58,700 nucleotides of DNA, taken from a virus. Position 1 is the stretch's first letter, and every line of letters starts with the position of its first letter. Shown in pieces: positions 58,084 to 58,700 of the stretch. The notes below the pieces were generated by a model. It was given only the letters and a program-made list of their open reading frames with translations. It was not told the origin of the DNA and did not search any database. Location of the stretch: positions 1 to 58,700 of IMG/VR virus record IMGVR_UViG_3300021420_000036. One strand, written 5' to 3'. Both the position numbers and the translations under genes were made by a program.

Positions 58084-58394
58084 GCGAGACCATATGCATT
58101 CAAAATAATGGCGATAATTACTACGTGGACCTGAAAGGCGACATACTGGACGGGGACGAAAGCCGGCAGGTGACGGCGGCGGAATTGGAACGGATTTATG
58201 CTGCGGCCAGCAAACTCAGAGCCGCCGCCAAGGGAGCCATCACGGGCCTGAAATCGGACCATGCGGTGAGTTTTTGTGGAGAGGGTGGTCAAATGGGAGA
58301 TGTGATGATCGGATGCCAGTCGGTGGACTACGCAGTGGTGGTACTGGCGGTGAAGGCGAGCCGTAAGATGCGCGCGAAGAAAGGCCGCAAATGA
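58080..58394 (+). CDS. Small hypothetical protein
   Basis: 104 aa from MSETICIQNNGDNYYVDL. The Lys/Arg-rich end (KASRKMRAKKGRK) overlaps the prepilin start by 4 nt (ATGA). Unknown function. Confidence 0.65.
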   Translation: MSETICIQNNGDNYYVDLKGDILDGDESRQVTAAELERIYAAASKLRAAAKGAITGLKSDHAVSFCGEGGQMGDVMIGCQSVDYAVVVLAVKASRKMRAKKGRK

Positions 58395-58700
58395 ACAAAC
58401 GGAGCTTGTATCCAATTATTGGGAGGCCACACTGTGGCTTTTCGCTGATTGAGATCATGGTGACGGTGACGCTGCTAAGCGTCATTATTTTGGGTCTGGT
58501 GACGATGTTCAACCAGACGCAACGGGCCTTTACGGGCAGTCTCACGCAGGTGGATGTGCTGGCGGGGGGGCGGACGACGGGGGAGATGCTGGCGCGGGAG
58601 TTGGAGCAGGTGTCAGCGACACCGGCCAATGGGTTGACGTTCTGGAGCACGAACGTGAGCACGAACGTATGGGCGCTGCCGCAGTCGGGACCGGGGACGA
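58391..58700 (+). CDS. Prepilin-type (GspJ/pseudopilin-like) protein, N-terminal part
   Basis: This starts a 238-aa protein that continues at position 1. The N-terminus MNKRSLYPIIGRPHCG ends in the prepilin peptidase site G16/F17, followed by FSL(I)E with Glu at +5 and the hydrophobic helix IMVTVTLLSVIILGLVTMF. This is the class III signal of type IV pilins and type II pseudopilins, processed by PilD. The C-terminal part resembles minor pseudopilin J. The leader residues NKRSLYPIIG are encoded by a dispersed repeat (58395-58421). It shares the operon with small phage genes and a secreted protein. Confidence 0.85.
   Translation, partial: MNKRSLYPIIGRPHCGFSLIEIMVTVTLLSVIILGLVTMFNQTQRAFTGSLTQVDVLAGGRTTGEMLARELEQVSATPANGLTFWSTNVSTNVWALPQSGPGT
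58395..58421. repeat. Dispersed repeat family F, copy 3 (in the prepilin leader)
   Basis: ACAAACGGAGCTTGTATCCA then ATTATTGG right after the ATG of the prepilin-like gene. Confidence 0.7.
58567..58700. repeat. Terminal direct repeat, right copy
   Basis: This matches 1-134 with one mismatch (58574 A against 8 G, giving Thr or Ala in the encoded protein). Joining the ends gives a circle of about 58,566 bp. Confidence 0.95.

Follow-up and report, generated by a model that had tools for sequence, protein, structure and literature searches.

Why should a tailed phage carry the gene for a pilin-like protein, and what could a single such subunit do for it? The question is raised by IMG/VR virus record IMGVR_UViG_3300021420_000036, whose 58,700 nucleotides (nt) form the window analyzed here. 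A gene that runs across the two ends of the record encodes a prepilin of 238 amino acids (aa). We read this protein as a GspJ/PilW-type minor pseudopilin, captured from a host of the order Limisphaerales and carried as an accessory gene that would alter or jam the tip of a host filament; to this reading we assign a probability of roughly 0.45. A phage-encoded pseudopilin was not found in the searchable literature, and while a GspJ-type pseudopilin is a known kind of component, its use by a phage appears to be new.

A prepilin with a GspJ-type body

The 5' part of the gene (58391..58700, plus strand, residues 1-103) lies in an open reading frame (ORF) that remains open up to the contig end. The first and last 134 bp of the record overlap (58567..58700 with 1-134), and the frame runs on past the join to a stop at 541. 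The 3' part (1..541, plus strand) therefore encodes residues 60-238 plus the stop, its first 134 bases duplicating the contig end, and the complete gene is 58391-58700 followed by 135-541. The single mismatch in the overlap, A at 58574 versus G at 8, is nonsynonymous and makes residue 62 of the pilin Thr or Ala; Ala occupies this position in most of the host homologs shown. Because the terminal bases otherwise agree, the most likely form is a circular or circularly permuted phage genome, Thr62/Ala62 being a population polymorphism. In three related viral records the ends repeat exactly over 97, 116 and 127 bp. When the two halves of the gene were scored separately with profile A1, which includes the phage sequence itself, both matched the same cellular family (E 3.0e-41 for the 5' half; 6.7e-22 and 6.7e-20 for the 3' half). 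They match complementary parts of that family, which makes the join coherent even when the overlap is disregarded, and the original prediction was right to have the protein span it.

The N-terminus, RPHCG followed by FSLIEIMVTVTLLSVIILGL, is a class III prepilin signal with predicted cleavage between G16 and F17 and Glu21 at position +5. Signal and N_methyl helix together occupy 58427..58498 (plus strand) and give the sole N_methyl match within the phage genome (E 1.6e-8). Gly at -1, Glu at +5 and a hydrophobic helix, the marks of the type IV filament prepilin superfamily, are all present. Two models of the prepilin N-terminus score above cut-off, the Pfam N_methyl model PF07963 (26.9 bits, cut-off 21.2) and TIGR02532 (23.2 bits, cut-off 16.3), in agreement with the signal proposed earlier. 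The NCBIfam gspJ model, TIGR01711, does not recognize the protein: it scores 14.3 bits against a cut-off of 64.85, and matches the N-terminus only.

The case for a GspJ-like body, also proposed earlier, comes instead from structure modeling. An AlphaFold2 model of residues 60-238, built from 13 sequences, has a predicted local distance difference test score (pLDDT) of 75.6 and a predicted template modeling score (pTM) of 0.72. A Foldseek search of the PDB returned GspJ-type chains (XcpW, EpsJ) as all fifteen best matches, with E from 1.7e-4 to 5e-3, and E rises to 0.28 directly after them. VIA-align gave Z of 10.8 for XcpW, 10.5 for EpsJ, 10.2 for TTHA1219 of Thermus and 9.3 for GspJ of enterotoxigenic Escherichia coli (ETEC), while the next, unrelated entry reached 3.5. 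As modeled, the body that follows the N-terminal helix has the GspJ/PilW fold, and not an unrelated one.

The host family and the divergence of the phage copy

The nearest relatives of the phage pilin are cellular. Thirteen bacterial loci align over approximately residues 16-235, all of them titled Verrucomicrobiota and many titled subdivision 3 or Limisphaerales; the order name used here is taken from these record titles. The family occurs in 189 of 245 sampled genomes of the order (E<=1e-20), nearly always as a single copy, with one exception among the matches listed. In a phylum-wide sample of 288 genomes, a full-length match appeared only in the order's own member. By sequence similarity, then, the phage pilin belongs to a host family confined, in the samples searched, to one order of Verrucomicrobiota.

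Other prepilin genes precede the host homolog in every one of the 13 loci; most of the longer loci have five prepilin genes in a row, with the homolog as the fifth. In one locus (L033), the five pilins come after genes for a GspE/PilB-type ATPase and a GspF/PilC-type platform protein, and the fourth pilin, just before the family member, is PilV/GspI-like. The product of the gene after the pilins is 1,292 aa long and weakly resembles Verru_Chthon A at its start; in another genome, the counterpart of this gene matches PilX_N weakly. Judged from these similarities, the host gene order is that expected for a V/I, W/J, X/K tip complex, the GspK/PilX match being weak. Host homologs are thus placed between GspI/PilV and GspK/PilX types, with the same reservation for the latter; the phage gene is not. 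In one host genome (L096:7804-15009), the gene behind the pilin cassette encodes a subtilase of 2,401 aa that carries LamG and P-domains and is a candidate substrate for the host machine.

The phage copy shows 31-43% identity to the host family, has both its MFNQTQRAF motif and its C-terminal H-FRQR motif, keeps 41 of 54 family-conserved columns and qualifies as a family member over its full length. Conservation is uneven. Over residues 15-75, the helix and its continuation, it keeps 20 of 21 host-conserved sites, versus 21 of 33 elsewhere (Fisher p=0.009). Identity in the helix is 0.60 between phage and host and 0.59 among hosts; in the body it is 0.31 versus 0.38. The phage head lacks two host loops, of about 16 aa after residue 148 and about 20 aa after residue 178 (about 36 aa in total). 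The placement of the phage copy in a tree, where its long branch joins another long branch, is not trusted.

We propose that the phage, or an ancestor, captured the gene from a Verrucomicrobiota host of this order. A host prepilin peptidase would process the product, none having been noticed among the phage genes. The assembly helix would admit it to a host tip complex of I-J-K (PilV-PilW-PilX) type, in which it would replace or outnumber the host subunit, and the changed head, together with a shifted minor-pilin stoichiometry, would leave the host filament altered or jammed. The phage would gain a lysogen or infected cell whose surface filament is lost or altered, giving superinfection exclusion, or whose secretion is retuned. 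No other pilin, pilus ATPase or platform gene was recognized in the phage, so the pilin presumably works through the host machine. A little more tentatively, we suggest mimicry at the level of the subunit: a counterfeit minor pseudopilin, with trimmed head and intact helix, may enter the host tip complex and reprogram or block the machine. In Vibrio cholerae, the ratio of minor to major pilin governs pilus dynamics (PMC13249403); since minor-pilin stoichiometry has this effect, mere overproduction could act too. The original prediction had offered altered host pili or type II secretion, superinfection exclusion and a virion attachment filament as functions, of which interference with host pili or secretion appears to fit best.

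Several points weigh against capture followed by interference. The host machine may be a pilus or a type II secretion system, and to our knowledge its filament is not an established receptor for the phage. In other diverged host homologs, too, the body is more variable than the helix, although the trend is weaker, so the pattern favors an intact assembly surface and is not proof of a decoy. The phage branch is long and does not point to a particular donor lineage. Scans of IMG/VR with the phage protein and profile A1, which rely on short exact peptide patterns that distant copies could escape, found no second viral carrier. Searches of INPHARED by tblastn gave no match to the full phage protein, and none to a generic PulG N-terminus, possibly masked as low-complexity. 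A fold search of BFVD returned nothing at E<=0.001.

The phage and its accessory arm

By its gene content the record is a temperate tailed phage, since it encodes a tyrosine integrase (9798..10946, plus strand), RecT (5993-7051, minus strand) and a terminase large subunit (37705..39882, minus strand). A DNA methyltransferase and a VRR-NUC nuclease were also recognized. A conserved virion protein, probably the major capsid protein (30448..31866, plus strand), served as the query for related viral loci and has relatives in 20 of them at 54-89% identity; further related records were located through tail and portal genes. No N_methyl protein occurs in any of 27 related viral records, several of them near-complete. 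The nearest relative with an end repeat (G591) has virion genes in common with the phage and zero matches to its predicted proteins from 54407 through the pilin to 14808, which makes the pilin part of a hypervariable arm. A hairpin of 16 pairs that resembles a strong terminator (55477..55511, plus strand) divides this accessory arm from the late genes. A capsid-like relative, 86-88% identical, lies on a 7.4-kb contig (L095; contig C478 of G483) in a genome of the same bacterial order, in agreement with the host assignment: close relatives of the phage infect the order or were binned with it, binning errors being possible.

The pilin module begins, on the plus strand, with a 335-aa ORF (55919..56926) that has a partial relative (38%) in a related virus, G002. 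The next ORF (56926..57270) has a weak sigma-70 region 4-like helix-turn-helix and a 57% identical relative in the same virus. Two small ORFs follow (57308..57673 and 57687..58083), then a 104-aa ORF (58080..58394) whose stop overlaps the pilin start in the sequence ATGA at 58391. Downstream of the pilin, a gap of 6 nt leads to a 67-aa ORF (548..751, plus strand) for which no family was found, and a further gap of 7 nt to a 421-aa protein (759..2024, plus strand) whose N-terminus looks, by eye, like a signal peptide. As gene layout, then, the operon with a signal-peptide protein that had been proposed is real. The 421-aa protein has no family match, and no homolog of it was found in 288 Verrucomicrobiota genomes or in viral contigs. 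A single-sequence fold model of it was useless (pLDDT 33.6) and was discarded.

Elsewhere in the window, a protein of 2,163 aa encoded among the virion genes (47919-54410, plus strand) combines an FtsK-gamma-like segment (residues 660-704) with the C-terminal domain of a DNA polymerase III beta subunit, the sliding clamp (residues 1071-1188); this places a clamp domain within a giant virion protein that may be ejected. The ORF at 36644-37405 (minus strand) gives a strong match to the functionally uncharacterized family DUF7873 (PF25283, E 1.1e-63), with otherwise phage genes around it. A sugar-modification-like gene block surrounds a portal-like gene at 16115-26820 (plus strand). It includes a C-methyltransferase (PF08484, 21035-22363) and glycosyltransferase-like ORFs at 16115, 18386 and 20062, the last two paralog-like by eye.

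Alternative readings and comparison with known systems

The main dull alternative is a passenger or lysogenic-conversion gene: a captured host gene, either an ordinary extra copy or a decaying one, with no role specific to the phage. We consider it unlikely. A single carrier, a hypervariable arm, an integrase and a host family restricted to one order are all as it would have them, yet the frame is intact, the N- and C-terminal family motifs are kept despite the long branch, and the first codon of the gene shares bases with a phage ORF's stop. The main functional alternative, which we regard as doubtful, is customized secretion, in which the phage pseudopilin would retune a type II-like host machine to export the co-encoded 421-aa protein, the two forming one unit. 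The apparent signal peptide of that protein speaks for it, as do the operon layout shared by the two genes, with 7-nt spacing and one small ORF between them, the absence of both from related phages, and the large subtilase/LamG exoprotein gene behind one host cassette. Against this, the partner has no recognizable family or fold, so nothing marks it as a type II substrate, and the idea makes GspJ alone the specificity determinant; we know of no case in which GspJ by itself determines secretion specificity.

An assembly artefact, in which the contig ends would consist of host pilin DNA or of two different pilin fragments wrongly joined, would account for a gene that crosses the join with a mismatch in the overlap. 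It is very improbable, however, given that the two halves complement each other as parts of a single protein, that the flanks are phage-type small ORFs, one overlapped by the start codon, and not a host cassette, and that related records also have exact end repeats. A prophage attachment site within a host pilin gene was likewise rejected, in view of the ATGA overlap, the phage-like flanks and an integrase 9.8 kb away. Most improbable of all is a component of the virion, with the prepilin forming a filament for attachment or an accessory to the tail of the particle: the gene does lie on the strand of most virion genes, but it belongs to a separate unit outside the conserved ones, behind the hairpin, is absent from the 27 related records that have virion genes in common with the phage, and encodes its only N_methyl protein, with no assembly genes seen.

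If the capture and interference reading is true, pseudopilus tips are open to hijack by mimicry, and host filaments could be controlled from within, not via the motor. The phage gene would also provide a handle on an uncharacterized pilin cassette that most of the sampled genomes in one Verrucomicrobiota order have in common, and would hint at which hosts are infected by a phage group that is otherwise without classification.

Among known proteins, GspJ of type II secretion (XcpW, EpsJ) resembles the phage pilin in body fold (Z 9.3-10.8) and in the class III signal with Glu at +5; identity is only about 12-19%, the phage protein scores far under the curated GspJ model, and no further pseudopilin was found with it. 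The PilW-type minor pilin TTHA1219 of Thermus has a like fold, but there is no family match at the sequence level, and the phage pilin is phage-borne and alone. Closest is the fifth pilin of the GspE/GspF-linked Limisphaerales cassette, the family defined here, with which it shares the aligned region and both motifs; the phage copy is shorter by its two missing loops and stands apart from the cassette. Verru_Chthon cassette protein C (TIGR02599) is the best NCBIfam match to the N-terminus, and the cassette order B-C-A resembles the host locus, with weak matches; the phage protein scores 24.0 bits against a cut-off of 256.5, over the first 60 residues only. Known cases in which phages disable type IV pili involve motor or platform proteins. 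D3112 gp05, DMS3 Aqs1 and Pf4 pVII, compared here by description, inactivate type IV pili for superinfection exclusion. Like the pilin in our proposal, they are encoded by phages and target the pilus machine of the host; their targets are PilB or PilC, and none is described as a pilin subunit (PMC11436027).
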